This document shows, piece after piece, positions 44,646 to 64,000 of a stretch of DNA of 64,000 nt. Every line of letters begins with the position of its first letter. Position 1 is the first letter of the stretch. The DNA lies in NCBI RefSeq assembly GCF_001597725.1, contig NZ_LUTR01000013.1:1-64000 (forward strand). The letters are read 5' to 3'. The notes under the pieces are model-generated. The model was not told the origin of the DNA. It saw nothing but the letters and a program-made list of their open reading frames with translations, and ran no database searches. Position numbers and translations under genes: made by a program. This stretch comes from Neptuniibacter marinus (GTDB lineage Bacteria > Pseudomonadota > Gammaproteobacteria > Pseudomonadales > Balneatricaceae).

Positions 44646-44713
44646 TGGCTTTCTGCATCTTAAAACAGCATTTAACAGACTTTAAGGAGGGGCCTTTTAG
44701 GGTCACTTTTGAA

Positions 44714-45580
44714 ATGAAAAGTACAGATACTAACGAATTTATTCTTAAAACCAATTGTGTCGCAGGTAGTGGAATAGTCGCTGCTGTGTCCTCTTTTCTA
44801 TCTGAAAGAGGTTGTTATATCAGTGAAATGAACCAGTTTGATGATCCTGAAAGTGGTCAGTTTTTTATGAGGATGCGATTTCATGTGGAATCAGGCGAAT
44901 ATGAGTTAGAAAAGCTGTCAGCAGAGTTTGTGGCTATCTCTGAGAAGTTCAAGATGGATTGGCGAATGGTGGCCGCGAATGCACCTACCAAGACATTGAT
45001 CATGGTGAGTAAGTTTGATCACTGTTTGGATGATTTAATGTACCGCTTGCACAAAGGTGAGATCAATATGGAGATCACTGCCATTGTTTCCAATCACAAA
45101 GATTTACGTCCAATGGCCGAGCGAGAGGGTATCCGCTTCATTCACTTACCAGTGACTAAAGATAATAAGCCCGAACAGGAGCAGGCATTGTTAGACGTTG
45201 TTGAAGAGACCGGCACTGAGTTGGTTGTTTTAGCACGCTATATGCAGATCCTTTCGGATAATTTATGTAAAGAGTTGAGTGGCCGTGCAATCAATATTCA
45301 CCACTCATTCCTACCCGGTTTTAAAGGGGCTAAACCTTATCATCAAGCCCATACCCGCGGCGTTAAATTAATCGGTGCTACCGCTCACTATGTTACGTCG
45401 GACCTTGATGAAGGGCCTATCATTGAGCAGTCTGTTCAGCCCGTTGATCACACCTATAGTCCAGAAGCGTTGGTCGCTGTAGGTCGTGATACTGAAACCG
45501 TTGCGCTTGCGCGTGCCGTAAAGCGTCATGTTGATCACCGAGTTTTTCTTGATGGCAACAAAACCGTTGTCTTTAAGTAG
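44714..45580 (+). CDS. purU: Formyltetrahydrofolate deformylase
   Basis: Hydrolyses 10-formyl-tetrahydrofolate to formate and tetrahydrofolate. 288 residues from the ATG at 44714. The ACT-like N-terminus (about 8-80, [27 protein letters not shown]) precedes a formyl-transferase fold with [46 protein letters not shown] (Asn, His and Asp catalytic residues). AAGGAGG at 44684-44690 is 23 bases upstream, an unusual distance; a GTG at 44645 is the alternative. Paired with folD to drain methyl carbon. Confidence 0.93.
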
Positions 45581-45591
45581 GAGAGATAAGC

Positions 45592-46476
45592 ATGACCGTA
45601 TTAATTAATGGCAAGCTGATCTCCCAGCAAGTGATCGACAAAACAGCTGAAGAGGTTACAGCCTTTGATGAGCGTTTCGGCCTAGCGCCGGGTCTTGCTG
45701 TTGTGCTTGTGGGCGAAGATCCCGCGAGTCAGGTTTATGTACGGAATAAAGTGAAACGTGCAGAAGAGGTTGGAATTAGGTCGTTGGAGTATAAGTTGCC
45801 AGCCGATAGTTCGCAGGCGATGTTGAATGACCTAATCCAAACACTCAACGCAGATCCTAGTGTTCATGGCATTTTGGTACAGCTGCCGCTGCCTAACCAT
45901 CTGAATGAAGAGGAAGTTCTATTAGATATAGATCCTGCTAAGGATGTTGATGGCTTCCACCCTCTAAATGTTGGCGCATTAGCCTGCGGGGAGGCATCGC
46001 TTGTTCCCTGTACGCCTATGGGCTGCATGATCATGTTAGAACATGTACACCAGGATCTTAGTGGTAAAAGGGCGGTTGTTATCGGTCGATCCAATATTGT
46101 TGGAAAGCCCATGGCTGCACTGTTATTACAAGCAAACTGCACGGTTACGATTGTGCATTCACGGACGAAAGATATTGAGTCGATCTGTTCGCAGGCAGAT
46201 ATCGTTGTGGCGGCCATTGGTCGCCCAGAGATGGTTAAAGCCAGCTGGATTAAACCGGGGGCGACCGTGATCGATGTTGGTATTAATGCCATCGAGCGGG
46301 ATGGCAAACGTAAGCTTGTGGGTGACGTCGATTTTGCCGACGTTGAACCTGTTACTAGTGCTATTACGCCGGTTCCTGGAGGGGTAGGTCCTATGACGAT
46401 TGCTTGCTTAATGAAAAACACAGTTCAAGCAGCGTTAGATCAAGAACTGAAACGTCAGGCTTTTTTAGCGCAGTAA
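45592..46476 (+). CDS. folD: Methylene-THF dehydrogenase/cyclohydrolase
   Basis: Bifunctional enzyme turning methylene-THF into 10-formyl-THF with NADP. 294 residues. [14 protein letters not shown] holds the catalytic lysine (about 55), [11 protein letters not shown] is the active-site strand, [11 protein letters not shown] follows, the Rossmann motif GRSNIVGKP is at about 166-174, and [10 protein letters not shown] at about 261-270. 11 bases after purU. A second, housekeeping folD probably exists elsewhere (inference). Confidence 0.95.
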
Positions 46477-46575
46477 TTACAGTAAAAACAGGCATCAAAG
46501 CATATATCGAGCTAATAGATTGTGCATTGATTCGATTTTCTCACTGAGCGATATGACATTTAAGGAGGGAGAGGA

Positions 46576-47823
46576 ATGCCTTTCTCACTATTAAAATATG
46601 GTCTAAATAAAGACTATCCGTTTGAACAGCACGCGGATTTACCAAAGCCAACTGTGCTGAAGTCTCATTATGATGTCGTTATTATCGGCGGTGGGGGGCA
46701 TGGTGTTGCCACCGCTTATTACCTAGCTAAGTATCACGGTATCAATAATGTTGCGATCTTAGAAAAAAGCTATTTAGGTGGTGGTAATACGGCCCGTAAT
46801 ACAGCGGTTATTCGTTCGAACTATCTCACCTCGGAAGGGGTTAAGTTTTACAGTGAATCGGTCAAACTCTTTAAGGAGTTATCCAATGAGTTTGATTTCA
46901 ATATTATGTATTCACAACGCGGACAGCTGACACTTGCACATACTGATGCGGCGGTGCGCGGCTTTCGTCAACGAGCAGAAGTTAATAAACATTTTGGCGG
47001 TAAGACTGAGCTGATTGATCCTCAACAGATCAGAGAGCTTGTACCGACCTTAAATATGAATCCTGCCGATATGCCGGTACTAGCAGGTTTGTGGCATATG
47101 GATGGTGCAACAGCTCGCCATGATGCGGTGGCTTGGGGTTATGCCAAAGGCGCTACACAGAGAGGCGTTGAGTTACATCAGTTGACAGAGGTAACTGATG
47201 TTATTGTCGAGCAGGGCAAAGTTACGGGCGTTAAAACCAACCGCGGTAATGTGAGCTGTGGCTGTGTAGTGCAAGCGGTGGCGGGTCATAGTTCGCTTTT
47301 AGCTGCAAAAGCCGGCTTTAAAATGCCGATCACAACTTTCCCATTACAGGCGATGGTAACTCAGCCTGTTAAACCGTTTTTAGACCCACTAGTCAGTTCT
47401 CCATCCTTGCATTGCTATGTTCAGCAAACAGGGCGTGGCGAATTAGTTTTTGGCGGCGGCTCCGATCCTTATCCTTTATATAGCACCCGTTCAACCATGG
47501 ATTTAAAAGAGAGCTTATTAGCCAACGCAGTCGAGCTCTTTCCCTTTATGGCCAATATGCGGTTAATGCGCCAATGGGCGGGTCTAACGGATATAACATC
47601 CGATTACAGCCCGATTATGGGACTGAGCCCCGTGGACAACTACTATCTTGATGCGGGATGGGGTACTTGGGGATTTAAATCAACACCGATTTGCGGCAAA
47701 TCAATGGCTGAGATGGTGGCGAGTGGCGGCAAGGTGCCTGAGCTTATTAAGCCCTTCTCTATGGATCGCTTCAACTCCTTCCGCCAAGTTAACGAAATGG
47801 GCGCGACTGCGGCTAGCCACTGA
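46576..47823 (+). CDS. mgdA: N-methylglutamate dehydrogenase subunit A (SoxB-like)
   Basis: 415 residues, homologous to the beta subunit of heterotetrameric sarcosine oxidase. The FAD motif VVIIGGGGHGVATAYYLA is at about 34-51, LGGGNTARNTAVIRSNY follows, and WHMDGATARHDAVAWG (about 172-187) contains the His that in sarcosine oxidases carries covalent FMN. MgdABCD oxidises N-methylglutamate to glutamate and methylene-THF. Preceded by a strong AAGGAGGGAGAGG. Confidence 0.93.
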   Translation: MPFSLLKYGLNKDYPFEQHADLPKPTVLKSHYDVVIIGGGGHGVATAYYLAKYHGINNVAILEKSYLGGGNTARNTAVIRSNYLTSEGVKFYSESVKLFKELSNEFDFNIMYSQRGQLTLAHTDAAVRGFRQRAEVNKHFGGKTELIDPQQIRELVPTLNMNPADMPVLAGLWHMDGATARHDAVAWGYAKGATQRGVELHQLTEVTDVIVEQGKVTGVKTNRGNVSCGCVVQAVAGHSSLLAAKAGFKMPITTFPLQAMVTQPVKPFLDPLVSSPSLHCYVQQTGRGELVFGGGSDPYPLYSTRSTMDLKESLLANAVELFPFMANMRLMRQWAGLTDITSDYSPIMGLSPVDNYYLDAGWGTWGFKSTPICGKSMAEMVASGGKVPELIKPFSMDRFNSFRQVNEMGATAASH

Positions 47824-47841
47824 TTGGATGAGGTAAGAATT

Positions 47842-48144
47842 ATGAAAATGATGAATTGCCCATTAAACGGGCTACGAAATATAAGTGAGTTTGTGCATGG
47901 GGGCGAGGTGAAAGAGATGCCTGATCCCAATAGTTGCAGTGATAAAGAGTGGGCTGATTACGTCTTCTTCTCTGACAATGCCATCTCTGTAGTAACCGAG
48001 TGGTGGTTGCATGCACCTTCTGGTTATTGGTTTATTGCTGAACGGCATACCGGAAGCGATGAAATTTTAAAAACCTATGACCCTTCAGTACTTTTTAGTG
48101 AACGTGTTGAGTTTAGTGCACCTGCGACGGAGGTTAAGGCATGA
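47842..48144 (+). CDS. mgdB: N-methylglutamate dehydrogenase subunit B (SoxD-like)
   Basis: 100 residues from the ATG at 47842 (GAGGT 7 bases before); a TTG at 47824 also opens the frame. SoxD signature: MMNCPLNGLRNISEFVHGGE with a zinc-ligand Cys and His, DKEWADYVFF and HAPSGYWFIAERH. Its stop overlaps the mgdC start (ATGA), so translation is coupled. Confidence 0.92.
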   Translation: MKMMNCPLNGLRNISEFVHGGEVKEMPDPNSCSDKEWADYVFFSDNAISVVTEWWLHAPSGYWFIAERHTGSDEILKTYDPSVLFSERVEFSAPATEVKA

Positions 48145-51044
48145 ATGATACCAATATGCGCTTAAATGCCCCAATGGGGTTGTTGCTTAATCGTAATGAG
48201 CAGGTTGAGTTTCTTTTTGAAGGGCAGCGTTATCAAGGTTATGCAGGTGATTGTATTGCCAGTGCATTATTAGCTAATGATCAGTGGTTGATGTCCCGTT
48301 CTTTCAAATACCATCGTCCTCGTGGGCCTTTAACTATGGCGGGGCAAGATGCCAATACCTTAGTGCAGCTCGGTGGTGATCCAAATGCGTTGGCAGATAG
48401 AACGGCCATTGCACCGAATATGCAGATCGAAGGGCAGAATTACAACGGTACTCTAGATAAAGACCGTGATGCTATTCTGGGTAATTTTGGCCGTTTTATG
48501 CCTGTAGGTTTCTACTATCGCTCATTTTTTAAACCTATGGGTGTTTGGGATAAATGGGAAGGTTATATTCGCGAAAAAGCGGGTTTAGGTAAGTTAGATC
48601 TGAACTTTACCCCAGAATATTATGATAAAAAATATCTCTTCACCGATGTTATGGTGGTTGGCTCAGGCCCTGCGGGTTTAAGTGCTGCGCTTAAGGCAGC
48701 GGACGGTGGTGCTAAGGTTTTATTGGTTGAAGAGATGCCGTTAATGGGTGGCGCTTTAGCCTATAACCGTTTTGATATAGAGGGCATCACGGCTGATCGC
48801 TTACGTGCAGAACTGATCGCAAAAGTAGAAGAGCATGACAATATCACCGTTATGGTCGATACCGTGTGTAATGCGTGGTTTACCGATAACTATTTACCTT
48901 TGATTCAAGGTAAGCGCCTATTCAAGGTGAGGGCCAAAGAGTGCATTATCGCCTCGGGTGCTTATGAACAGCACGTTGTATTCCGTAATAATGACCTTCC
49001 GGGTGTTGTTATGTGTAGTGCCGCTACGCGAATGATGAAGCTTTATGCCATTAAACCGGGTGAGAGCTCTGTTGTATTAACCGGTAATGATGATGGCTAT
49101 TTGACGGCCTTAGAGCTTAGCGATCAAGGGGTGAATGTTAAAGCGGTCGTTGATATGCGTGAAGGTGTCGCAACGCCTGAGTTGATCGATGCTTTATCTG
49201 AGCGTGATATCACCTTGCATCAAGGCTATACCGTGTATGAAGCACTTGCAGAAAAGGGCAATAAACGCATTAAAGGGGTGGATGTTCGTAAAATCACCGC
49301 TAAAGGTGAGGTCGGTAACGCCAGCCGTATTATTGACTGTGATCTGCTCTGTATGTCGGCCGGTTATATGCCTGCTTACCAGCTGTTATGCCAAGCAGGT
49401 GCACAGCTTAGTTATGCGGATGAGTTGGCTGAATTTACTTTGTCAAAGCTGCCGGAGCATCTACATATTGCCGGTTCCGTGAACGGTATACACCAGTTAG
49501 ATTCAGTAGTCGCCGATGGGCAACGGGCTGCTCAGCTTGCTTTGAATAATTTAAATCTTAGTGATGAACTACCTGGCAAAGTTAGCTGTAGGGTTAAGCC
49601 GAACTTTGATTGGCCGATCTTTAGTCACCCTAAAGGTAAAGACTTTGTCGATTTTGATGAAGATCTACAGGCGAAAGATATAGTCAATGCGACGCGATTA
49701 GGCTATCGCGATGTACAGTTGGTTAAACGTTTCTCCACAGTGGGTATGGGGCCTTCACAAGGACGGCACTCTGCGCTACCGACGGCTCGTTTAGTTGCAA
49801 ACTCAACAGATAGAACGGTAACTGAAACCGGTGTGACAACGGCCAGACCTCCGTTTGCGCCGGAGAAACTTGCACATATTGCCGGTCGTATATTTGATCC
49901 TTACCGTCGTACACCTATGCATCATCGACACCTTGAATTAGGGGCCAAAATGATCCCTGCAGGTAATTGGAGGCGTCCGGCCTTTTATGGTGATCCCAAT
50001 AAGCGAGATGCGTGTATCCATGCGGAATCGGTACATGTGAGGAATAAAGTAGGTTTGATCGATGTTAGTACATTAGGGGGTATTGAGTTAAAAGGCCCTG
50101 ATGCGGCAGAGTTTATGAATCGTATCTATACCTTTGCTTTTTTAAAGCAGCCAGTCGGTAAAACGCGCTATGCGGTATACACCAATGAGCATGGTGTAGT
50201 GATTGATGATGGTGTTGCCTGTCGAATAGCTGAGGACCACTTTTACGTGACTGCCACAACCAGTGGAGTTGACCGTGTTTATCGAGATATGACTAAGTGG
50301 AATACTCAATGGCGTTTAGATGTAGATATTCTGAATGTGACTTCAGCTTATTGTGCCGTGAACTTAGCGGGGCCTGACGCTCGTAAAGTGCTAGAAAAGT
50401 TAGTCACAGGTACCGACCTTTCGACGGAAGGTTTTCCATTTTTGGCATACGGTGAAGCTGATGTGGCAGGTATTCCTGCACGCTTGCTCCGTGTGGGCTT
50501 TGTGGGTGAGTTGGGTTATGAGATTCATGTACCGTCACGCTATGGCGAAGCTTTATGGGATCTGCTGATGGAAGCTGGCGAAGCGTTTGATATCAAACCT
50601 TTTGGTGTTGAAACCCAACGTTTATTACGTCTTGAAAAAGGCCACGTTATTGTTAGCCAAGATACGGATGGAATGAGCCATCCAGGAGAGCTATCAATGA
50701 ATTGGGCGGTTAATAGGAAGAAACCTTTCTTTGTTGGTTGTCGCTCAGTGGATATTGTTATGGCGCAGCCTCAAACACGTAAGTTGGTAGGTTTTGCTTT
50801 ACCGGCAGAGAGTAAAAAACCTGAGGAGGGGCATCTTGTATTAGAAGGTGATGGGATTACCGGTAATGTCACTTCATGTGAATACTCTCCAGCGATGAAG
50901 AAAATAGTGGGTTTGGCTTTTGCTGGTATTAATTCTAGCGAACCTGGCGACAACATTAGTATCCGTGTTGATGGTCAGATTGTCGAAGCAGAGGTGGTTA
51001 GTCTGCCGTTTTATGATCCAAACAATGCAAGACAGGAGATGTAG
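48141..51044 (+). CDS. mgdC: N-methylglutamate dehydrogenase subunit C (SoxA-like)
   Basis: 967 residues. The N-terminal ferredoxin-like segment (about 15-95) contains FEGQRYQGYAGDCIASALLAN. An NAD/FAD Rossmann domain has DVMVVGSGPAGLSAALKAADGG at about 171-192. A C-terminal aminomethyltransferase (GcvT) domain covers about 575-965 and binds THF, so the methylene group is passed on without free formaldehyde. Length fits the alpha subunit of sarcosine oxidases. Confidence 0.94.
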   Translation: MNDTNMRLNAPMGLLLNRNEQVEFLFEGQRYQGYAGDCIASALLANDQWLMSRSFKYHRPRGPLTMAGQDANTLVQLGGDPNALADRTAIAPNMQIEGQNYNGTLDKDRDAILGNFGRFMPVGFYYRSFFKPMGVWDKWEGYIREKAGLGKLDLNFTPEYYDKKYLFTDVMVVGSGPAGLSAALKAADGGAKVLLVEEMPLMGGALAYNRFDIEGITADRLRAELIAKVEEHDNITVMVDTVCNAWFTDNYLPLIQGKRLFKVRAKECIIASGAYEQHVVFRNNDLPGVVMCSAATRMMKLYAIKPGESSVVLTGNDDGYLTALELSDQGVNVKAVVDMREGVATPELIDALSERDITLHQGYTVYEALAEKGNKRIKGVDVRKITAKGEVGNASRIIDCDLLCMSAGYMPAYQLLCQAGAQLSYADELAEFTLSKLPEHLHIAGSVNGIHQLDSVVADGQRAAQLALNNLNLSDELPGKVSCRVKPNFDWPIFSHPKGKDFVDFDEDLQAKDIVNATRLGYRDVQLVKRFSTVGMGPSQGRHSALPTARLVANSTDRTVTETGVTTARPPFAPEKLAHIAGRIFDPYRRTPMHHRHLELGAKMIPAGNWRRPAFYGDPNKRDACIHAESVHVRNKVGLIDVSTLGGIELKGPDAAEFMNRIYTFAFLKQPVGKTRYAVYTNEHGVVIDDGVACRIAEDHFYVTATTSGVDRVYRDMTKWNTQWRLDVDILNVTSAYCAVNLAGPDARKVLEKLVTGTDLSTEGFPFLAYGEADVAGIPARLLRVGFVGELGYEIHVPSRYGEALWDLLMEAGEAFDIKPFGVETQRLLRLEKGHVIVSQDTDGMSHPGELSMNWAVNRKKPFFVGCRSVDIVMAQPQTRKLVGFALPAESKKPEEGHLVLEGDGITGNVTSCEYSPAMKKIVGLAFAGINSSEPGDNISIRVDGQIVEAEVVSLPFYDPNNARQEM

Positions 51045-51046
51045 TG

Positions 51047-51718
51047 ATGGAAGAGATAACGAAGAACATTGTTAAGCCAGAGACTTATCTTGCCCGTAGC
51101 CCATTGTATAGAGTACATGAAGCAGCGGGTGCACACTTTGAAGCGTGCGCTTCTGCAGCTCAAGTTGCCTCTTATGGTGATCAGTCTGAACCTCTTGCTG
51201 CCTTAATTGACCTGTCGGTACAGCATAGGTTTGGAATACGAGGCGCCAATGCTATAGCCGCGTTGAGTGCGGCGGGTTTATCGGTTCCGGAAAAGCCAAA
51301 CCAATGTTTGAATTCAGCTAATGGTGAGACTGTATTGCGTCTTGGCAAAACTGAGTTTTGGGTATTAGGGGCGATGGAGAGCGGTACCTGCTCGGCGGAT
51401 TCTAGTGCATTTGCCGATTGTTATCCGGTTTATTGCCAAGATAGTCATGCATGCTTACTACTGAGTGGTGAGCAGCTGCCTGATATTATGGCCAAGCTTT
51501 GTGGTGTTGACCTGTCTGAATCGGTGTTTCCTAAAGGCTCTATAGCACAAACCTCTGTTGCAAGAATTAATGCGATTATCAGCCATCTACCGGATAAAGA
51601 AGGTACTCACTTTGTCATTTTGTGTGATAGCGCAGCGGCTGAATACCTTTGGGCTTGTCTGTTGGATGCAATGGATGAGTTTGGAGGTAAAGCAGCGGGT
51701 CTGAATTATCTTTTTTAA
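51047..51718 (+). CDS. mgdD: N-methylglutamate dehydrogenase subunit D (SoxG-like)
   Basis: 223 residues from the ATG at 51047 (AGGAGA 8 bases before; a GTG at 51044 overlaps the mgdC stop). It resembles the gamma subunit of sarcosine oxidase, a GcvT-like fold: ALIDLSVQHRFGIRGANAIAALSAAGLSVPEKPNQ. Last gene of the mgd set. Confidence 0.88.
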   Translation: MEEITKNIVKPETYLARSPLYRVHEAAGAHFEACASAAQVASYGDQSEPLAALIDLSVQHRFGIRGANAIAALSAAGLSVPEKPNQCLNSANGETVLRLGKTEFWVLGAMESGTCSADSSAFADCYPVYCQDSHACLLLSGEQLPDIMAKLCGVDLSESVFPKGSIAQTSVARINAIISHLPDKEGTHFVILCDSAAAEYLWACLLDAMDEFGGKAAGLNYLF

Positions 51719-52047
51719 ACTTAGGTTTTGAGTACTTCTTGTTAAAAATCAATTAGTAACCTCTTGGCAATTTATACATGTTGTTGAGGTGGATCTATTA
51801 CCCCCAAATCGATTACTGGTTCCCAGCTGATGTCGATTTAACCCCCAACCGGCGCTCTGCCTCTGTGCATAGTGTCGGTTTTTTATGTCAGCCATTTTAT
51901 TTTTAAAAACCTACCCCTTTTGGGGTACCCAATGAAGAGAATTGTGTTGGCGTGGCTAATGGTAAATATTGTTCCTATTGAAACCTTAATTAATTGTCAC
52001 CAGAAGGTGGCGGTAAACCTTAATTGGATTATTACTTGGAGGTCATT
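51719..52047. promoter_or_regulatory. dmmABC promoter region
   Basis: No gene in 329 bp. TACCCCT-TT-TGGGGTA (51912-51927) is an inverted heptamer pair spaced 7-2-7, matching the NarL code TACYYMT on the left arm and all but one base on the right. AAGAGAATTGT starts at 51935 and GTAAATATT is at 51962-51970. The tdm promoter has the same three elements at the same spacing. A lone TACCCCC lies at 51799-51805. Confidence 0.75.
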
Positions 52048-52575
52048 ATGGAGCCTGAAAGTGTTTCTGTTGTTACAAGTAAGCCTATTTATAGATCTGA
52101 GATAAGTGATGCTCCTTGTGCTTATAGCCTGTTTATTTGTGAACAATTAAGCACTGCTTTTTCAGACCTATATCAGAGCAAAACCGTAGCTAAAAAAGAT
52201 CTTGTTGATGACGGGGATCTAGACAGTGTTAAGGATCAATCAGTGAGGTTATTAGCCGATGCACCTGCGGCCACCTTGGTTTACTTATCGGGTACCGAAA
52301 AGTACATGTGGTTAGTGGGGGAGCAGTTAAAAGCTTTAGGCGTGACAGAAGATCAGATGGTTATGCTGCCGCCTTTGAATACGGAACGTAGTGTTTTTTG
52401 CTGCCACTGTTATACGGTAACCGATCATGTAGTAACAGCCCCAGCAACCTGCGCAGGATGCGGAAAACTGTTAGCTGTTACCGATCATTTTGCTAAATCA
52501 CATGCGGCGTATTTTGGTTATCAAGTCAATGCAGAAAACGCGACTGAGATCCCAGAAAGTGTGGAGTTAAGCTAA
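52048..52575 (+). CDS. dmmA: Dimethylamine monooxygenase, DmmA-family subunit
   Basis: 175 residues from the ATG at 52048 (TTGGAGGTC ribosome site; the frame opens earlier at a TTG). Flavodoxin-like N-terminal part and a C-terminal cysteine cluster, CCHCYTVTDHVVTAPATCAGCGKLL (about 118-142), consistent with a zinc or Fe-S site as in DmmA-family proteins. With the next two genes it converts dimethylamine to methylamine and formaldehyde. Subunit letter assigned from family memory. Confidence 0.8.
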   Translation: MEPESVSVVTSKPIYRSEISDAPCAYSLFICEQLSTAFSDLYQSKTVAKKDLVDDGDLDSVKDQSVRLLADAPAATLVYLSGTEKYMWLVGEQLKALGVTEDQMVMLPPLNTERSVFCCHCYTVTDHVVTAPATCAGCGKLLAVTDHFAKSHAAYFGYQVNAENATEIPESVELS

Positions 52576-53522
52576 TGAGTAATCAAATAAAAGTAGAAGT
52601 AGCCAGTATTTGCCAAGTAGCTCCAACCATCCGCGAATTTACCTTAGAGGCTATAGACGATGAACTTTATCCCTTTTCGCCGGGAGCACATGTTGTTGTT
52701 GAGATGCCGAGCGCAAAGAAGATATATAAAAACGCATACTCCCTGTTGAGTGACCCTGCGGATACCAATCGTTACCGTATAGCCGTTCGTTTACAGGAGG
52801 CGTCTAGGGGCGGCTCTATCTATATGCATGAGCAGGTAAAGGTCGGCGATCAATTACTAATTAGCCCACCCTCCAATTTGTTTTCTCCCTTCTGGCTAGC
52901 TAAAAAACACTTGATGTTAGCTGGAGGCGTTGGGGTGACACCCTTTATGTCATATATCCCTGAAATGCTTCGTCGTAATGCTGATTTTGAACTTCATTAT
53001 ATGTATCGCAGTTTGCAAACCGGCGCTTATAAAAATGAGCTTTCTGAGCAGTTAGGCGATAAGTACTTTGGTTATGACTCTGACCGTCATACGCGCTGTG
53101 ATGTTACAGAACTATTAAGCCAGCAGCCTTTAGGCACGCATATCTATATTTGCGGCCCCGAATCATTAATTCAGGCGGTGGAGGAGGCAGCACAAACCTT
53201 AGGCTTACCTGCCAGTGTTATTCATTCAGAAGAGTTTGCGGCACCTAAACCAGGGATGCCCTTTATTGCTGAAATTAAATCCAGCGGGCAGCAAGTAGAA
53301 GTCAGTGCTGAAGATAGCTTGCTAGAAGCGCTAGAAGCATCAGATATTTCCGTACCTAACTTATGTCGAGGCGGCGTTTGTGGTCAGTGTGTTTGTACTG
53401 TTGAAGAGGGCGATATAGATCACCGTGATCAATACCTCTCGGATGATGAGAAAGCGGCAGGTAAAACCATAATGCCTTGTGTTTCTCGTGCTGCGGGTGA
53501 ACGTCTGGTCTTGGATATTTAA
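52575..53522 (+). CDS. dmmB: Dimethylamine monooxygenase reductase (phthalate-dioxygenase-reductase type)
   Basis: 315 residues. Flavin-binding domain with NAYSLLSDP (about 55-63), NAD domain with LAGGVGVTPFMSYI (about 115-128), and C-terminal [2Fe-2S] domain with CRGGVCGQC ... MPC cysteines (about 264-304). It feeds NAD(P)H electrons to the haem subunit. Overlaps dmmA by 1 base. Confidence 0.88.
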   Translation: MSNQIKVEVASICQVAPTIREFTLEAIDDELYPFSPGAHVVVEMPSAKKIYKNAYSLLSDPADTNRYRIAVRLQEASRGGSIYMHEQVKVGDQLLISPPSNLFSPFWLAKKHLMLAGGVGVTPFMSYIPEMLRRNADFELHYMYRSLQTGAYKNELSEQLGDKYFGYDSDRHTRCDVTELLSQQPLGTHIYICGPESLIQAVEEAAQTLGLPASVIHSEEFAAPKPGMPFIAEIKSSGQQVEVSAEDSLLEALEASDISVPNLCRGGVCGQCVCTVEEGDIDHRDQYLSDDEKAAGKTIMPCVSRAAGERLVLDI

Positions 53523-53534
53523 GGAGAACTAATA

Positions 53535-54554
53535 ATGCGAGTTGCACCCAAAGAAGTTGAAACGTTCCGTGATGATTTTACTTACTCGAACAGTCCTGAG
53601 GCGATAAAACGTTTTCCTTTTCCCTTTCCTGAAGATGAGTACCGTTATTCCGTTAATATGGAGCCACATACTCCGAAAGGTCGTGAGGGCTCAGCCTATG
53701 AGCATTTTCTTGATATTGATGAGCACTACCTATCAGAAATGACTGAGCGCAAGTTAGTACTTGATGCTATGCCCCATCGTTGTCTTGCGATGGATCATAT
53801 GGAGCTTGCTTGTTGGGATATGCTTGAGCGGTTAATGACGTCCTTAGCTGAAGACTATTCTGATTACTTCAAACTGACCATTGAGGGTGATCAGTGGACA
53901 TGGGAAAACAAACTCCTCAATATCCACGACACTTTTACCTTTGGTGATAGTAGTACGTTACCTAAACCACCGTTGGAATATATTGGTTGCCAGGTACAGG
54001 GTGACTTTGCTCTTTTAGATCAACGCGATGGCGATCTTTTTCTCGATGCAGGAATGGTCACATGTCCAGCAGATTGGTCGCTCGCGTTTGATGCTGGGAT
54101 GAGCTTCAAGGAGTGGCATGGTCCTGTACCTATGGCTCATAACGAAGGTATTTTTGAGCGTGCATTGAAATATCTGACGGCCATGCAAGTGGGTAGTCCC
54201 ATCCGCCGTTTAAACTGGACATTAACCGTCAACGCTCGTATGGATACCTCACCTGAAACTTATCATGAGTGGGGGCACGAAAGGACCTCTGTGACGCCGG
54301 AGAACGTCGGTGAAAAAGTTTATCTGCGTGTTGAGGTACAAGTGATGGATCGTATGCCGCGCAGTAATGCACTGATGTTTATTATCCGTACTTATCTGAT
54401 TAGCTTGGAGGATATTGCCACTAATCCAGAATGGGCAAAACGGATGCATCGGACGATGAAAACACTACCCGCACCGTTGATCGAGTATAAGGGATTAAAC
54501 CGTTATCATTCGATGGTGGTTGATTACCTATCTCAATTTGATCCTGCTAATTAA
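53535..54554 (+). CDS. dmmC: DUF3445 haem-dependent oxidative N-demethylase subunit
   Basis: 339 residues of the DUF3445 family, whose characterised member (HODM alpha) binds haem in a PAS-like fold and demethylates dimethylamine. FPFPFPEDEYRYSVNMEP near the start, LGCQVQGDFALL-type core (IGCQVQGDFALLDQ), DAGMSFKEWHGPVP and MRTYLISL-type segment (IIRTYLISLEDIA) are visible. 12 bases after dmmB. A terminator follows, so dmmABC ends here. Confidence 0.86.
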   Translation: MRVAPKEVETFRDDFTYSNSPEAIKRFPFPFPEDEYRYSVNMEPHTPKGREGSAYEHFLDIDEHYLSEMTERKLVLDAMPHRCLAMDHMELACWDMLERLMTSLAEDYSDYFKLTIEGDQWTWENKLLNIHDTFTFGDSSTLPKPPLEYIGCQVQGDFALLDQRDGDLFLDAGMVTCPADWSLAFDAGMSFKEWHGPVPMAHNEGIFERALKYLTAMQVGSPIRRLNWTLTVNARMDTSPETYHEWGHERTSVTPENVGEKVYLRVEVQVMDRMPRSNALMFIIRTYLISLEDIATNPEWAKRMHRTMKTLPAPLIEYKGLNRYHSMVVDYLSQFDPAN

Positions 54555-57041: not shown

Positions 57042-57389
57042 TCAGAGTTTAATCGTAAAGTGTTTAAATACTTTCTCTTCTATCTCCCAAACCCCAGTAA
57101 AGCCAGCTTCAATAACAAAAGAGTCTCCAGGCGATAGCGTTACGCTCTCTCCACCATCGGGTGTTATTGTTACTTTACCTTCAATAAGATGGATATATTC
57201 CCAGCTTTTGTATTCCGCTCGGTAGCTACCTTCTGTTGCTTCCCAACATCCCGCAATCATACTGCCATCTTCTGATGTGTATTCGATCCAGGTTTTCATG
57301 GTAGGTGTGCCAGATATTTTTTCCCAGCCTTCTAAATCTGTATCAATAGAGGTCACTGTTTTATCGATAATCTTTTTTATGTAGCTCAT
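57042..57389 (-). CDS. Cupin-domain protein downstream of tmm
   Basis: 115 residues of the Cupin_3/DUF861 type: GCWEATEGSYRAEYKSWEYIHLIEGKVTITPDGGESVTLSPGDSFVIEAGFTGVWEI. Only part of the usual metal-binding His set is present, so catalysis is uncertain. It lies 65 bases after tmm on the same strand and is probably co-transcribed; the linkage hints at a link to TMA oxidation. Confidence 0.8.
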   Translation of the reverse strand: MSYIKKIIDKTVTSIDTDLEGWEKISGTPTMKTWIEYTSEDGSMIAGCWEATEGSYRAEYKSWEYIHLIEGKVTITPDGGESVTLSPGDSFVIEAGFTGVWEIEEKVFKHFTIKL

Positions 57390-57454: not shown

Positions 57455-58819
57455 TTAGCCCGCTTTTTTTACTTCCATGGTCTCTGATAGATAGGCCTCT
57501 AATGAATCATCTAAAGCGTCAATCCATGGTGTATGGTGTGGAGGAGACATAGTGCCGGTCATCAATGAGCGGTATGAGTGATCACGGAAAGTCATGATGT
57601 TTTCTTTCTTATGGTGTTTCCATTCGAGGAAGGTCTGTCGAACACCTTCAATGTCGAAGGTTGGGTAATCGGTTGCTTCGATCAGTTCTAGGATGTAATC
57701 CCCTTGGAAAGTGAACATATCTTCAGCTGTTTCTTGAAGGAGTTCCCTTTCGCGCCACTCCATTGAGTTTTTGGTCATCTCCTCTTTGGATGGCAGAGGG
57801 ATTCTGCTCATAATAATGTCGCGGACATACCAGGCCTGAGCATCAAACATATTGAATGTGTACCACTGATCTTGCATGCCGAGGTAGAACATCTGCGGAT
57901 TATTTTCCCAGACAACACCTTTATAGAGATCTAAAGGCCATAGGCGATTGTCTGTTTTAAGGCGAAGGTCTTCAGGTAAAAATGGGAAATGGTGGAGGTA
58001 GCCGGTGCATAGAATAATAGCGTCGATCTTGTCTGAACTGCCGTCTTCAAAGTAAGCGGTGTCTGTATCAACATGAAGGAGATTGGATTTCTCTTCCCAA
58101 TTTTCAGGCCATTTATAACCCATAGGGTTTGTTCTATAGCAGCTAATGAGTTTTTTTGCGCCGTATTTATAGCATTGTGAGCCGATATCCTCAGCGGAGT
58201 AGCTACTACCCACAAGGAGGATTGTTTTATCTTTAAACTCTAAGGCGTCACGGAAGTCGTGAGCATGGAGTATACGCCCGCCAAATTTCTGGAACCCTTC
58301 AAATTCAGGCACTCGAGGTGTAGAAAAATGGCCCGAGGCACAGATCACATAATCAAACTCTTCGGTATAAACTTCATCGGCATTATGGTCATGTACTGTG
58401 ATAGAGAAAGTCGAAGTATCAGAGTTAAAGATAACGTCGCGTACAGGGGTATTAAAGCGGATGTAATCACGTACCCCAGCTTTTTCTACACGGCCTTTAA
58501 TGTAATCCCACAAGACCTCACGAGGAGGGTAGGATGCGATCGCTTTACCGAAATGTTCTTCAAAGCTGTAATCTGCAAATTCTAAACACTCTTTAGGTCC
58601 GTTAGACCATAAGTAGCGATACATGCTGCCATGTACAGGCTCACCATTTTCGTCGAGCCCTGTCCTCCAAGTGTAGTTCCAAAGGCCGCCCCAATCGCTT
58701 TGTTTTTCAAAACAAACGATATCTGGAATCTCGGCTCCTTTTGCTTGTGCAGATTGGAAGGCTCTAAGTTGTGCTAGCCCACTTGGGCCTGCACCGATAA
58801 TGGCAATGCGTTTAGTCAT
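57455..58819 (-). CDS. tmm: Trimethylamine monooxygenase
   Basis: Flavin monooxygenase that oxidises trimethylamine to trimethylamine N-oxide with NADPH and O2. 454 residues from the ATG at 58819 (GGAGAAAC ribosome site); an upstream ATG at 58831 lies inside that site. FAD motif GAGPSG at 9-14, FMO fingerprint [15 protein letters not shown] motif VGSSYSAED at about 204-212 and [11 protein letters not shown] late. Bacterial Tmm length and the [12 protein letters not shown] segment separate it from other FMOs. Confidence 0.94.
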
Positions 58820-58910
58820 AAGTTTCTCCATGAAACGTCAGAATCAATGAGGAGGCTGTTGTTGATACAGCGTTATGATCTAAATTAATCAGCTTTTGGG
58901 GTTTGGAACA

Positions 58911-58947
58911 TTCCCTTCTATGGGTAATCAAAAAGGGGTAAGGCGGT
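58911..58947 (-). promoter_or_regulatory. NarL-type heptamers upstream of tmm
   Basis: On the minus strand: TACCCCT (58940-58934), TACCCAT (58926-58920) and, two bases after the latter, an AAGGGAA half-site (58917-58911), giving a 7-2-7 pair with an imperfect second arm. The strong half-sites match TACYYMT exactly. They lie 92-121 bp before the tmm start, in the gap after the PAS gene. Confidence 0.65.
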
Positions 58948-58991
58948 AGATATAAGTTGTCATCAGGGGTTTTGGGACTGTTGTTTTGTGT

Positions 58992-59786
58992 TTATTTAAA
59001 CTGGAATACAAAGCCCTCTACGCCTAGTATCATGCCGCTTTCAGAATAGAGTCCGCGTCCTTTTTCTTTGACAGTGATGCACTTACCGTTTGCTTGGTTT
59101 AAACGATATTGCAGCTCAAAAACCTGTTGGGTTTGTAGACAAAACTGTACTTGATTCCACACATAACCTGCATCCTCTTCGTGGATTAATTCGCCATAGG
59201 ATATTTGTGGTTGGTTGATAAGCTCTTCAGAGCTAAGGCCTGTGAGTTCTTTGCAGCCGCTACTCACATATTCCATGCTCCAACTGGTGTTATTTCGAGA
59301 ACGGTAAAGCATGGCAGGTAAACGGTTTACTAAGCTTTGCAAACTTCGGTGGCTGGCGTTACGTATCTGTTCGTTACGGATCTGAGGAGTAATGTCACAA
59401 AGGGTTGCACTGAGTGGGTAATGTTCATTAGGTCTCAGTTGTTGCACTCTCATTTCGCACCAATGAATATTGCCATCGGCGCTAATGATCCGGAACCAAA
59501 CGAGCTCACTTCCATGGCTATTGAAAACTTTACGAATAATGTCGTTCCAGATTTTTACATCTTCAGGGTGAAGGAAGTCTGTAAACAGTAAATTATGGGA
59601 GCTGCTGGCGGCGACGCCGGTGATTTTTTCCCAGCAGGTATTTACTAGAGATATGCGGTGGTTTTGATCGATGATCATAACTACATCGCCAAGGCTGTTG
59701 AATAAGGTCTCATGAAGATTGCTGTCATCAAGATTAAAGCTGTTGTCCCTATTAAAAACAGATTGAGGCCATTTTAGTAAGTTCAT
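58992..59786 (-). CDS. Stand-alone double-PAS protein
   Basis: 264 residues from the ATG at 59786, chosen because AAGGA lies 8 bases before it; an earlier ATG (59810) overlaps the response-regulator gene. Two PAS domains: about 25-130 (LGDVVMIIDQNHRISLVNTCWEKITGV) and about 150-262 (MLYRSRNNTSWSMEYVSSGCKELTGLSSEELI). No kinase, cyclase or DNA-binding output is attached. It probably transmits a signal to the kinase by protein contact. Third gene of the kinase-regulator operon. Confidence 0.85.
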   Translation of the reverse strand: MNLLKWPQSVFNRDNSFNLDDSNLHETLFNSLGDVVMIIDQNHRISLVNTCWEKITGVAASSSHNLLFTDFLHPEDVKIWNDIIRKVFNSHGSELVWFRIISADGNIHWCEMRVQQLRPNEHYPLSATLCDITPQIRNEQIRNASHRSLQSLVNRLPAMLYRSRNNTSWSMEYVSSGCKELTGLSSEELINQPQISYGELIHEEDAGYVWNQVQFCLQTQQVFELQYRLNQANGKCITVKEKGRGLYSESGMILGVEGFVFQFK

Positions 59787-59790
59787 GGGA

Positions 59791-60474
59791 TTAATCCTTA
59801 TCCAGATCAAAATGCTCTTTCGCGTTATTTGTATGGGCCCAGGCTGCTAACTCTAAACGTGAATGAAGGTTTAGTTTTCTTAATAGGTTTTTTACGTAGA
59901 CTTTGACGGTGCCATCACTGATACCTAATTCTCGGGCGATCAACTTGTTATTAAGTCCTTGGGCAATATAGGACAAAGTTTCTAGTTCGCGCTCGGTCAT
60001 TTCCGAAAAGATGGCATCCGCTTGATTAACCTCTGTTTCGTGAGTTTCGCGTAGCTGGTGGGCTAAAGAGGTTACCGCGTCTTCGTTGAGGGCGGTCTGG
60101 CCATTGAGAACATTGACTAAATGTTTAATGATTTCATCGGGTGGGGTATCTTTTTGTAGATATCCATTTGCACCACTTTTCAAGGCGGAAAAAAGCTGAT
60201 CATGATCGCTACAGGCGGTTAAGATAATAATTTTTAGTTGATCATCTGTTTTGCGGATGAGCTGTAATATATCTAGACCGCTGGTTTCAGGCATTTGTAA
60301 ATCAAGCAATAGAATATCTGGATAAAGGTCATCCAATTGTTCTAAAAGGTCGGTTGCGCCATCAAACTCGGCAATAACATTAAATTGCTCGCTGTCATTT
60401 AGTAGCTCTACTACCCCCCGCCGAAACAAAGGGTGGTCATCTACTACAATCACTGAGTGTGTGGGATTACTCAT
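59791..60474 (-). CDS. NarL-family response regulator
   Basis: 227 residues from the ATG at 60474 (GGAGATAACC just before). Receiver domain with acidic pair DDH (12-14), phosphoacceptor Asp58 (ILLLDLQMP) and Lys in YLQKDTPP (about 110). The C-terminal helix-turn-helix has LTERELETLSYIAQGLNNKLIARELGISDGTVKVYVKNLLRKL; TVKVYVK keeps the Lys-Val-x-x-Lys residues with which NarL reads its TACYYMT half-site. Overlaps the kinase gene by 8 bases. Likely controls tmm, tdm and dmm. Confidence 0.93.
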   Translation of the reverse strand: MSNPTHSVIVVDDHPLFRRGVVELLNDSEQFNVIAEFDGATDLLEQLDDLYPDILLLDLQMPETSGLDILQLIRKTDDQLKIIILTACSDHDQLFSALKSGANGYLQKDTPPDEIIKHLVNVLNGQTALNEDAVTSLAHQLRETHETEVNQADAIFSEMTERELETLSYIAQGLNNKLIARELGISDGTVKVYVKNLLRKLNLHSRLELAAWAHTNNAKEHFDLDKD

Positions 60475-61660
60475 GGTTATCTCCAATCTTCAATGTGAGT
60501 ATGACCTGTGTTCCTTGGTTGGGATGGGGTTGGATAAGGAGTCGTGCATCAATTCGTTCTGCTCGTTCATGCATGATTTTTAAGCCAAAGCTGTCGTTAC
60601 GTGCGTTTTTGGTATCTAAACCTATACCGTTATCTTCTATAAATATCTCTATGTGCGTACTTAATGTTTCTTTAATGACAATACGTGCGTGGCTGGCGTG
60701 TGAGTGCCTGACGATGTTGGAGAGGCACTCTCTAACGATATAAATCAGCTGCATAGATTGTTTAGGGCTTGTGATATTTTTCTTTAGCCGGTTGTCGTAT
60801 TCAAAAACAATAGCTGATTGCTGTTCAAATTCTGATACAGAATCGGAAATCGCCTGGGTTAAATTATCGCCCTTCATTGATAAACGTGATGAGGTGATTA
60901 ATTCTCGTGTTTGACGGTAGGCATAATGGGTATAAGCCGCCAGATCTTCTGTGACGGGCTTTAATCCATGGTAGGCACTGCTTTGGCAGAGGCTATCTAG
61001 CTTAGCGCTTTTAATTCTTAAATAACCGAGTACTTGTGCTAGAGAGTCATGTAGTTCCGCTGCATGGATGGCACGTTCTGATGTAACCGCTTTACTTATC
61101 TTTTTCTCTTGCTGCGCCCATGCTGAAAAGCCTTTTTTTAAAGCGTTTTCTACGGCAGTGAGCTTCCAGCGGACCTGGTTAGCGCTAGGTACTTTATTGG
61201 GGAAGATAGCTAATAGCCAAATATTCATCTCTTTACTTTCAGTTAATTTATAACCATAGAGAGGTTCGGGAAAACAGTGGTTAGATAGGGCATCTAGATA
61301 GAGTGTGTCGTGGATTAAATCATTGTGCCCATTAGTAAAAAAACGATGTAACGCATGCAGTATTTTACTGTGTGGGGTGCTATCAGATGGATGGTGGACA
61401 AAGGTTTCTGCGGTACTCGGTGAACTGAATACTATCTTTAGGCGGCACTGCTCATCGGCTGAAAAGCTTTGGCTTAGTTGTGCTTCAAGCTTCTTTAATA
61501 AGGGAGGTAAGGTTTGATTGATTTCGTCAGTTGTTGCTATATCAAAAGCAATATCGCCTAGGGAAAACAGATTCTCACTTACAGGGTTGGAGGGTTGGCT
61601 GGGGCTTTCAGTGTAAGCGTTAAAAAATTGTTCTAGCCATGTTTTGATGTTTATCGCCAT
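60467..61660 (-). CDS. Soluble NarX-type histidine kinase
   Basis: 397 residues with no membrane segment. The N-terminal sensing part (1-190) is unlike NarX and not recognised. Dimerisation/phosphoacceptor domain: ERAIHAAELHDSLAQVLGYLRIKSAKLD with His204. ATPase domain: N-box RECLSNIVRHSHASHA (about 315), DNGIGL and GTQVILTL. The H-box and C-terminal sequence are NarX/HisKA_3-like. A cytoplasmic signal, perhaps an amine or formaldehyde, is inferred. First gene of the three-gene operon. Confidence 0.92.
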   Translation of the reverse strand: MAINIKTWLEQFFNAYTESPSQPSNPVSENLFSLGDIAFDIATTDEINQTLPPLLKKLEAQLSQSFSADEQCRLKIVFSSPSTAETFVHHPSDSTPHSKILHALHRFFTNGHNDLIHDTLYLDALSNHCFPEPLYGYKLTESKEMNIWLLAIFPNKVPSANQVRWKLTAVENALKKGFSAWAQQEKKISKAVTSERAIHAAELHDSLAQVLGYLRIKSAKLDSLCQSSAYHGLKPVTEDLAAYTHYAYRQTRELITSSRLSMKGDNLTQAISDSVSEFEQQSAIVFEYDNRLKKNITSPKQSMQLIYIVRECLSNIVRHSHASHARIVIKETLSTHIEIFIEDNGIGLDTKNARNDSFGLKIMHERAERIDARLLIQPHPNQGTQVILTLKIGDNHE

Positions 61661-61942
61661 ATGTCCTCCCCTTTATTTCAATTGTTTGTGTTGAGGTCGC
61701 TTTCCCCACTCTCTGGTTAAGCAGTATTTATGCCACGTGAATGCCTGTTACCGCAATTACCCCCAATGGAGTATGCCTTCAAGAGGATTGTTTGAATTCT
61801 ATTGATAGTAAATATTTATAACCACTGGGAATTATAAAAAAGACAACATTCGATTGAGATATGTGTGCACTAGAGTCGACCTTTAATAGACCCAGCGCAC
61901 CAATCTTGAACTTTAAAAGACGGTTTTAGTAAGGGCGTGGAG
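61661..61942. promoter_or_regulatory. Divergent promoter region of the kinase operon and tdm
   Basis: 282 bp without a gene. TACCCCC-AA-TGGAGTA (61758-61773) is a NarL-like 7-2-7 pair. AAGAGGATTGT starts at 61781 and GTAAATATT is at 61808-61816. Element order and spacing equal those of the dmmA promoter. The long leader to tdm (about 120 bases) has no recognised structure. Confidence 0.75.
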
Positions 61943-64000
61943 ATGTCAGTAAATCAGAAAAATGATCTGCCGGATGCTTGCTATCTTAATATGCAAAATG
62001 ACAATAGCGTTCGATTATTTCGTGTTGAGGCCCATCAAGCCATCCGATTAGATCTGAAAAGGGGCGATCATTTTCAGATTTTTAGCCAAGATGGTGAGCA
62101 ACTGGCGGAACTGATTGTGCGGGATCGTCGAGGCTCGTCTGCAAATCACCTTTTAGCAACAGCCTTAGGTTTAGATGGGGTTAGTGGCTTACCTGCTGAG
62201 GGTATCAATGCTCAAATTGCTGAGAATAAATTGGCAGGGCAGGCGTTACAGGCGCAACTCAAGGGTTGGGGTATTAATGATTACCATCTATCTCAGGTGA
62301 TCTCCGTTGGAGCCGCAAGAGTAGGGGAGGGGCAAAACACGATTCCCGAACCTACCTACTTTGAGGCCTTAGATGATATCAATATTATCGTTGCAGCCGC
62401 TGGTTTATCTATGCCGATAGAGGGCCATGTACCGGTTACTGAGTTAGAAGTTAAAGTTAATTATTTAGATGCATCAGCAGCATTACTTCCTGAACCTTTG
62501 GCACCATCTCAATTGGAACTGCGTATTCCCCGTGCAAGTGCACGTGTCTATGAAGTTAAAGCGGGAGAGTGGATCCAAATTATTGATGTTGAGGGTAAGC
62601 AGTGTTCAGATTTTTTAGCTTTTGATAAAGCGGCGTTAGAGCAAGGAGAAGAGTTAGCTCTTGATGCTGTTGCGACTCGTACCCTGTTAGGTCTGAGTAA
62701 TCCTCAACCAGGTATCCATTCCCGTTTTTTAGGGGCCGATATGCAATCAATGGTCGAGGTGGTACAAGATACCGTTGGTCGCCACGATAGTTTTTTAATG
62801 GCCTGTAATCCGAAATATTATGAAGATAGCGGTTATTTTGGACACATTAGCTGTAGTGATAATTTCAACCGTGTATTGGCTCCATATAAGGTTAAGCCTC
62901 GTCCAGCTTGGCCTGCAATAAACTTCTTTTTTAATACCCATGTTGAACCGTGCGGATCGGTATCAATGGATGAGCCTTGGTCTCGAGCCGGAGATTACGT
63001 ATTGCTACGTGCTACCCGTGATCTGATCTGTGCATCATCAGCTTGCCCCGATGATATTGACCCGGCTAACGGTTGGCAGCCTACTGATATTCATGTGCGA
63101 ATTTACTCCGCTGATAATCATTTCCCTCGTTCTATCGCTTACCGGACCTCTCCTCAGGAGCTACCACGTATGACTAAAACAACAGGCTTTCACAGTCGTG
63201 TTTCTGCACTGACTAAACAGATGACTGAGTACCGTGGGTACTGGGTTGCTTCGGAGTATGAGGGATGGGGGGCTCAAGCTGAATATTTAGCCTGTCGGGA
63301 ACGGGTAGCTGTAATTGATTTAACGCCTCTTAGAAAGTTTGAGGTGACAGGGCCAGATGCTGAAGCCTTTTTACAATTTGCTTTAACACGAAATGTTAGG
63401 CGCTTAGCTATTGGTGAGATCGCGTACTCTGCTATCTGCCATGAAACGGGTGGAATGATTGATGATGGCACTATCTTTCGTATGGGTGAACAAGCCTTTA
63501 GATGGGTTTGTGGCGATCCTTACACCGGCTTGTGGTTAAAGAATCAAGCGCAAGAGCAGGGTTATAAAGTAAGCGTTAGGAATTCTACTGACCAGTTACA
63601 TAATATCGCAGTTCAAGGCCCGAAAAGTCGTGAGTTATTGAGCCAGATTATTTGGGCGCCTGAATGTCAACCGAGTATGGATACCCTGGCGTGGTTTCAT
63701 TTCATGATTGGTCGATTAGGTGGGCCCGATGGCATCCCTGTAATGGTGTCCCGCACAGGTTATACCGGTGAATTAGGGTTTGAGGTTTGGTGTCACCCGG
63801 ATGATGCCGAAGCAGTTTGGGATCAAGTATGGGAGACAGGTCAGCCATACAAAATTGCACCTTTAGGTTTTGACGCTTTAGATATGTTGCGTATTGAAGC
63901 GGGTTTGATTTTCGCTGATCACGAGTTTTGTCCTGAAACTAACCCTTATGAAGCGGGTATAGGTTTTACCGTACCAATGAAAACTAAAGCGGAGAATTTT
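61943..64000 (+). CDS. tdm: TMAO demethylase (partial, runs off the window)
   Basis: Splits trimethylamine N-oxide into dimethylamine and formaldehyde. 686 codons are visible from the ATG at 61943 (GTGGAG before it), with no stop before the edge. The DUF1989 domain (about 195-385) includes IDVEGKQCSDFLAF, NFFFNTHVEP and CASSACPDDIDPANGW, whose cysteines bind metal. A GcvT-type aminomethyltransferase domain starts at about 415 and can capture formaldehyde on THF (VIDLTPLRKFEVTGPDA, MVSRTGYTGELGFEV). The architecture is that of known Tdm. Confidence 0.93.
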   Translation, partial: MSVNQKNDLPDACYLNMQNDNSVRLFRVEAHQAIRLDLKRGDHFQIFSQDGEQLAELIVRDRRGSSANHLLATALGLDGVSGLPAEGINAQIAENKLAGQALQAQLKGWGINDYHLSQVISVGAARVGEGQNTIPEPTYFEALDDINIIVAAAGLSMPIEGHVPVTELEVKVNYLDASAALLPEPLAPSQLELRIPRASARVYEVKAGEWIQIIDVEGKQCSDFLAFDKAALEQGEELALDAVATRTLLGLSNPQPGIHSRFLGADMQSMVEVVQDTVGRHDSFLMACNPKYYEDSGYFGHISCSDNFNRVLAPYKVKPRPAWPAINFFFNTHVEPCGSVSMDEPWSRAGDYVLLRATRDLICASSACPDDIDPANGWQPTDIHVRIYSADNHFPRSIAYRTSPQELPRMTKTTGFHSRVSALTKQMTEYRGYWVASEYEGWGAQAEYLACRERVAVIDLTPLRKFEVTGPDAEAFLQFALTRNVRRLAIGEIAYSAICHETGGMIDDGTIFRMGEQAFRWVCGDPYTGLWLKNQAQEQGYKVSVRNSTDQLHNIAVQGPKSRELLSQIIWAPECQPSMDTLAWFHFMIGRLGGPDGIPVMVSRTGYTGELGFEVWCHPDDAEAVWDQVWETGQPYKIAPLGFDALDMLRIEAGLIFADHEFCPETNPYEAGIGFTVPMKTKAENF

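Follow-up and report, generated by a model that had tools for sequence, protein, structure and literature searches.

We analysed positions 1 to 64,000 of contig NZ_LUTR01000013.1 of Neptuniibacter marinus, hereafter the window, which is part of a 90-kb contig in a genome of 3.45 Mb and carries a methylamine pathway together with a putative regulatory system. Genes that we take from homology to be gmaS-like, mgs, purU, folD and mgd (40262-51718) are followed by dmmABC, tmm and tdm, of which dmm and tmm were assigned by Pfam or NCBIfam models. Dimethylamine (DMA) monooxygenase is encoded on the plus strand at 52024-54554 by dmmA (likely ATG at 52048), a dmmB-like reductase gene and dmmC (HODM), with 74.6 bits against NF041259 (cut-off 60). 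The trimethylamine (TMA) monooxygenase gene tmm lies on the minus strand at 57455-58831 (NCBIfam NF058570, 835 bits, cut-off 675), and the plus-strand gene at 61943-64000 (ATG at 61943), which extends to 64315 on the contig, is presumably, by homology and context, tdm for trimethylamine N-oxide (TMAO) demethylase. Between tmm and tdm, on the minus strand and overlapping or 4 bp apart, stand genes for a soluble histidine kinase of 397 amino acids (60467-61660), a NarL-like response regulator (59791-60486, likely ATG at 60474) and a stand-alone double-PAS protein (58992-59810, likely ATG at 59786). These three genes, hereafter the trio, form an operon, as a preliminary description of this DNA had stated and as open reading frames (ORFs) and Pfam domains bear out. 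Two named relatives, Neptuniibacter sp. 1_MG-2023 (97%) and N. pectenicola (80%), were found to carry the kinase.

The kinase combines a divergent N-terminal region with a NarQ/NarX-like core of dimerization and histidine phosphotransfer (DHp) and catalytic (CA) domains at residues ~167-391, and this core is the only part matched by the NCBIfam models of NarQ (166.5 bits, cut-off 553) and NarX (126.6 bits, cut-off 578). In Pfam, HATPase_c scores 43 bits and HisKA_3 21.1 bits, under its cut-off of 24; HisKA_3 is above the cut-off in all three trio relatives scanned, the window kinase has a HisKA_3-type DHp domain with an ELHDSxAQ box and a CA domain, and H204, N315 and the G-box residues are invariant in 24 aligned kinases. 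A periplasmic nitrate sensor domain was not found in the kinase by the Pfam scan or by the NCBIfam NarQ and NarX models (Pfam also shows none in the membrane-bound NarX-like control kinase of locus L153). No membrane helix was seen either, the maximum 19-residue hydropathy being 0.59 as against 2.78 in that control, and none of 27 relatives' kinases reaches 1.6. Because no sensor or membrane part was found, the kinase is not a nitrate-sensor kinase, and its likeness to NarQ/NarX is confined to the catalytic core. Several kinases of genus g12 have a Cys-rich N-terminal region, which may correspond to the NarX cysteine cluster.

The regulator consists of Response_reg (REC) and GerE domains in Pfam, with the phosphoacceptor Asp and a KVxxK recognition helix that reads TVKVYVK, exactly as first described. 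Its DNA-binding domain is almost invariant among aligned relatives, including a near-invariant NarL-type reading helix. The best match in the PDB is Escherichia coli NarL (E 1.3e-41), and the NarL model gives 200.4 bits, below the curated equivalog cut-off of 250, compared to 160 bits for NarP (cut-off 343). Among 44 further matches in its own genome, the seven nearest paralogues reach at most 156 bits on the NarL model. The trio thus falls below the NCBIfam cut-offs of NarX, NarQ, NarL and NarP. The third protein, a candidate sensor or adaptor, carries a PAS and a PAS_3 domain, of which the PAS_3 half is better conserved; it has no PDB relative at E 0.001 and no PHROG match.

The placement of the trio beside tdm and tmm recurs in other genomes. 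A family-wide search for the kinase in 116 genomes gave 30 loci: the window's own, two with kinases of NarX length, which were left out, and 27 taken regardless of their neighbours. All 27 have genes for the regulator and the PAS protein and a tdm of at least 645 amino acids within the 18-20 kb that were read, and 24 of the 27 have tmm in that stretch as well. Two genomes without tmm near the trio (G041 and G042) have it elsewhere, with a 26.7-bit regulator box of the kind described below, and in G044, which is 87% complete, tmm was not found in the genome. An order-wide search covered 390 genomes, with at most four candidates scored in each, and 8 of its 30 loci were read. Soluble-kinase loci outside the family (families f6, f21, f27 and f38) had the trio with tdm in 7/7 and tmm in 6/7. 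L153 (family f46), which also carries a NarL-like regulator and a PAS-containing protein, was rejected as the same system: its kinase is of the membrane NarX-like kind, and the 17 kb read contain neither tdm nor tmm. Overall, the 34 homologous trios read, from five families, all have tdm in the same stretch, and 30 of them also have tmm there. Tmm is encoded in 46 of the 116 family genomes (E 1e-60), and the trio occurs in 28 of these 46 compared to 1 of the 70 without Tmm (Fisher 1e-13, uncorrected for relatedness and only indicative because the species are related). G065 was rejected as a trio-minus genome, since its regulator (340 bits) and PAS genes lie at a contig end where the kinase is cut.

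NarL binds inverted heptamers two bases apart, as in the engineered 7-2-7 site TACCCCTAAAGGGGTA (PMC4549865), and the NarL/NarP heptamer is TACYYMT (PMC4886647). Three boxes of this type are predicted in the window: the tdm box (61756-61780, plus strand), whose 16-bp pair at 61758-61773 (TACCCCCAATGGAGTA) is shared with the kinase promoter region; the dmmA box (51910-51934, plus strand; pair at 51912-51927, TACCCCTTTTGGGGTA); and the tmm box (58918-58942, minus strand; pair at 58925-58940). The sites before dmmA and tdm/kinase are 7-2-7 pairs, and that of dmmA differs from the engineered NarL site in three central bases. We scored both strands of the 64 kb with a held-out matrix whose training set was 16 sites at tdm and 16 at tmm, all from other genera, and none at dmmA. 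The tdm box ranked first (24.8 bits), the tmm box second (20.5-20.9 bits) and the dmmA box third (19.4-19.9 bits), ahead of a fourth match inside mgdA (15.5 bits); sites upstream of gmaS and mgd were not among the eight best in the window. In 60 Markov copies of the window the maxima averaged 14.1 bits, the highest being 21.3. Downstream of the tdm box are conserved sigma-70-like elements on the plus strand (ATTG at 61787-61790, TAAAT at 61809-61813), dmmA has ATTG at 51941, at the same distance from its box, and the spacing from box to element is shared by all three promoters. A looser pair pattern, written after the sites had been seen, was rejected as evidence: with at most one mismatch it gave 45/48 matches compared to 59/55 in the control. 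Its exact places are only two, the dmmA and tdm sites, which is weak because, by our rough estimate, about 2.5 exact matches per strand are expected by chance.

The same element emerges when upstream regions of relatives are aligned on anchors other than the heptamers, namely ATTG...GTAAA for tdm (matched in 19 of 22 loci) and GGGAAT/GAGGAAT for tmm (used for the 19 loci in which tmm follows the PAS gene). Both sets share TAcYYC(c/a/t)-N2-(t)GRnn-TA-cCC, with the TA 28-29 bp ahead of (A)ATT(G) and a -10 element of TAAA type further on. Boxes in relatives were scored leaving one genus out at a time, with a threshold of 10 bits; in 383 coding stretches the 99% quantile was 9.4 bits and the highest score 12.3 bits, and 76 unrelated upstream regions reached at most 9.8 bits. 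An earlier background set was dropped because it was contaminated by true sites. In the family, a tdm box of at least 10 bits is present in 22 of 27 loci, that is, at all 22 divergent tdm promoters, the five misses being loci with tdm downstream of tmm; tmm has such a box in 19 of 24 upstream regions. In the seven loci outside the family, each region from which the kinase gene and tdm or tmm diverge has a box of 15-31 bits, as does each tmm, and no box was seen at tdm in L151 and L152, where tdm lies downstream of tmm. On this comparison of sequences, conservation rather than counting decides that the sites are not chance matches.

Genomes with Tmm and no trio offer a further comparison. Eighteen such genomes exist in the family, and 13 were read. 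No box was found at tmm in 12 of these (best 7.9 bits), and the thirteenth (genome G103, locus L104) has a 16.5-bit box together with a fusion of helix-turn-helix (HTH) and PAS domains. In G065, which encodes the regulator and PAS protein at its contig end, the box scores 30 bits. Leaving out G103, tmm has a box in 22 of 27 cases with the trio (the 19 of 24 above plus G065, G041 and G042) compared to 0 of 12 without it.

The fusion in L104 (11000-11899) is a protein of 299 amino acids in which two NarL-type GerE HTH domains are joined to PAS_3; it is encoded divergently from tmm-tdm, with tmm split into two ORF pieces, and is the best match to the PAS protein in its genome (89 bits compared to 51 for the next). 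On its domain composition, it is a kinase-free variant of the same predicted circuit. In three genomes of genus g13 the sole genome-wide match to the PAS protein (E 1e-8) is again a PAS_3-carrying protein adjoining tmm (L110:8106-9859, L112:11071-12818 and L113:7656-8813). Those of L110 and L112 are HisKA kinases by Pfam, each with a response-regulator-like neighbour, which is a REC + GerE regulator in L110 and which, by our own reading, would be REC plus LuxR-type and FixJ-like in both. In the remaining trio-minus genomes that were read, nothing adjoining tmm matches the PAS protein, and two of them have a LysR-type regulator gene there. LysR-type regulator genes adjoin tmm in L100 (6972-7949), L101 (10645-11580) and L102 (194-1177), of which the last two come from genomes that yielded no trio. 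Because PAS_3 keeps company with tmm even where the NarQ-like kinase is absent, the PAS protein, through PAS_3, is the best candidate for the sensor of the trio. The conserved motif of PAS_3 here is typical of PAS_3 domains generally, so the ligand cannot be read from it. We tentatively consider, as a possibility somewhat short of even, that PAS_3 is a portable intracellular sensor of trimethylamine or a derivative, shuffled beside tmm among three chassis: a stand-alone form with NarQ-like kinase and NarL-like regulator (the window and 34 relatives), gated by nitrogen starvation; the HTH fusion of L104, which has neither kinase nor receiver; and the HisKA fusion of L110 and L112. The stand-alone chassis would then be a free PAS protein that drives a sensorless nitrate-type kinase.

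Upstream of the trio operon is a sigma-54 -24/-12 promoter (TGGCATAAATACTGC, 61721-61735, minus strand). The pattern TGGCAY-N5-xTGC before the kinase is conserved in 31 of 34 trimmed regions, a level that shuffled sequences seldom reach, and in the remaining three (L066, L071 and L072) the sigma-54 promoter falls inside over-extended kinase ORF starts. NtrC-like half-sites occur at 61866-61871 (TGCACT) and 61897-61902 (GCACCA), and of the 34 relatives 24 have TGGTGC/GCACCA upstream of the kinase gene, compared to 6.6 expected. The conserved promoter and the half-sites together are a probable nitrogen gate on the operon.

Our preferred interpretation, which we hold to be quite probable, is that the trio works as a two-component system dedicated to this pathway, has its sensor on a separate protein and activates the TMA genes. 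Under nitrogen shortage, phosphorylated NtrC and sigma-54 would turn on the kinase-regulator-PAS operon. A methylated amine or its oxidation product would act on the PAS protein, through PAS_3, which would prompt the NarQ-like kinase to phosphorylate the regulator. Once phosphorylated, the regulator would bind the 7-2-7-type boxes, which lie some 55-60 bp ahead of the predicted start, and would activate sigma-70-like promoters in front of tdm, of tmm and, in this genus, also of dmmA; the tdm/kinase box may also feed back on the trio operon. We infer that methylated amines are the signal, that the regulator binds the boxes and activates rather than represses, that nitrogen gates the operon and that the PAS protein takes the part given to it here. 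The earlier proposal, that dmmA, tmm and tdm are served by a NarX/NarL-like system of their own with NarL-type sites in front of them, is supported by the linkage in 34 of 34 loci, the fixed spacing and the first three held-out ranks.

Several observations count against this interpretation. The plain consensus TACYYMTNNAKRRGTA with at most two mismatches occurs at 390 places per strand in the 3.45-Mb genome compared to 396 in a reversed control, so the NarL consensus is at chance level genome-wide and heptamer counts were rejected as evidence. By the plain consensus the sites do not exceed chance; by conservation of the extended box they do. The described 7-2-7 pairing stands at dmmA and tdm/kinase; at tmm the left heptamer is good, the right one is degenerate (TACCCCT-TT-TTGATTA) and a direct TACCCAT follows. 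One of the 60 random windows exceeds the tmm and dmmA box scores; singly these two sites are good and not overwhelming, and jointly, at the right promoters, they are overwhelming. Among family tmm upstream regions, 5 of 24 score below 10 bits (three g5, two g12), and in L149 and L150 the best tdm match is on the opposite strand. In L147 and L149 the pair, judged by eye, adjoins the -35-like element instead. The dmmA site, third in the window, is the least general: the box is present in 5 of 13 family upstream regions (two g1, three g2), all five with the box-to-ATTG distance seen at tdm, and missing from 8. It is not found in g6, g8 and g12, where some dmmA genes lie within a longer operon, and three misses (L073, L076 and L077) directly follow tdm in one operon. 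Outside the family it occurs in one of four loci (L146). Full NtrC palindromes beat shuffles in few loci, and the one in L054, which almost matches the window in sequence, is weak (7/12). AlphaFold2 models of the kinase and PAS protein were unusable (pLDDT, the predicted local distance difference test score, of 45 and 36, from three-sequence alignments). As a separate observation, the dmmA upstream regions of L065, L066 and L071, which have no box, show by eye a sigma-54-like TGG-N10-GC element, and control of the DMA step there seems to have switched type.

Other explanations deserve weight to different degrees. The trio could be a nitrogen or nitrate/redox regulator that controls the TMA genes as just one nitrogen source among several, with a signal other than methylated amines and with the PAS protein sensing oxygen, redox, flavin or haem state. 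PAS domains often bind haem or flavin, a sigma-54 promoter and NtrC-like half-sites precede the operon, and the kinase and regulator are closest to the nitrate family. We nevertheless regard this explanation as unlikely, given that no nitrate-sensor or membrane part was found in the kinase and that tdm accompanies the trio in the loci read. The extended box in IUPAC code also counts against it: with at most two mismatches the box has 32 matches in the genome compared to 22 in the control, and two of the three one-mismatch places are dmmA and tdm, with tmm among the two-mismatch matches (the others were not checked singly). Activators usually bind upstream of the -35 element, which is where the boxes lie: in three promoters they precede a conserved -35-like element by a fixed distance. 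A repressor relieved by the signal is distinctly unlikely in this light, even if NarL itself both activates and represses (PMC4549865).

The boxes might also be read by another protein while the regulator acts elsewhere, since the genome encodes further NarL/FixJ-type regulators and the pairing of regulator and box is a prediction. That the tmm box tracks the trio, that the regulator tops its seven nearest paralogues on the NarL model and that its DNA-binding domain is almost invariant make this very improbable. Chance heptamers, which the genome-wide count of the plain consensus would allow, are scarcely credible, being contradicted by the held-out ranking, along with conservation in five families and fixed spacing. 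We return to a pathway-specific system activating the TMA genes as the reading that best fits the evidence.

Compared with known systems, the trio resembles NarX/NarQ-NarL/NarP in its DHp/CA core, TVKVxVK helix and predicted 7-2-7-type sites, and differs in having no periplasmic nitrate sensor or membrane helix that could be found, an extra PAS protein, and predicted targets in aerobic amine catabolism. In another such system the kinase NreB is soluble and of HisKA_3 type, and NreC belongs to the NarL family of regulators. Staphylococcus NreABC, which responds to nitrate and oxygen, is similar in joining a two-component system to a separate soluble accessory receptor, the GAF protein NreA, which regulates NreBC; a periplasmic sensor is described in the same source as the defining part of nitrate-sensing kinases (PMC8199190). 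Unlike in NreABC, the accessory protein here is PAS + PAS_3 by Pfam rather than GAF, and the predicted targets are TMA genes. NreABC is the nearest working analogue of the trio, with no homology of the accessory parts implied. By its features, the trio would work like NarXL or NreABC and is not a member of the nitrate-sensor group. In Ruegeria pomeroyi, the AraC-type TmaR and the GntR-type TmoR control the pathway, including the tmm, tdm and dmm steps for which control is predicted here (PMC13390433). They are one-component regulators of unrelated families, unlike the REC + GerE regulator of the window, and they also control gmaS and mgd (PMC13390433); in the window, sites upstream of these two genes fall outside the eight best. 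The text of that paper that was searched has no match for two-component, LuxR, kinase or NtrC (PMC13390433). The preliminary description knew of no regulator of the trio's kind for these steps; TmaR and TmoR, of other families, are now published (PMC13390433), and no two-component system for tmm, tdm or dmm was among the matches listed in the open-access literature, subscription papers not being covered. An amine-sensing histidine kinase with a dCache_1AM sensor is encoded with a dimethylamine methyltransferase in Methanosarcina mazei, which differs from the trio in that sensor domain and in its archaeal methyltransferase pathway (PMC10104139).

Further features of the window, its genome and related loci are as follows. 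A gene for an EutQ-type cupin (57042-57389, minus strand) stands downstream of tmm and is retained in many relatives. A PuuR-like XRE-cupin regulator (39391-39984, minus strand; 52 bits, cut-off 211) is divergent from the gmaS-like gene and is a candidate for controlling the steps that use monomethylamine, whose genes showed no top-ranking box. A conserved protein of 119 amino acids is encoded directly after tdm in several relatives (L081:4363-4722, equivalent to contig 64362-64721, past the window) and before dmmA instead in L072. The 22-mer TAATCATAAAGGGATCCTCATC occurs six times in the genome (contigs C29, C33, C36, C39, C49 and C50), three copies being within about 140 bases of a contig end; it is a repeated element at which the assembly may break. 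At 5068-8850, a tyrosine-integrase-like gene and small genes follow a glutamyl-tRNA synthetase-like gene, which we take to be a probable integrated element.

Trimethylamine and TMAO rank among the important organic nitrogen compounds in the sea. Among the papers found, regulation of their aerobic breakdown has been worked out only for a Roseobacter (PMC13390433, 2026). For bacteria of at least five families in this order, the analysis presented here identifies a likely regulator together with the sites it would bind and a gate that probably responds to nitrogen. It suggests that a nitrate-response toolkit has been rewired to another substrate, and could provide an entry point to an intracellular methylamine sensor.

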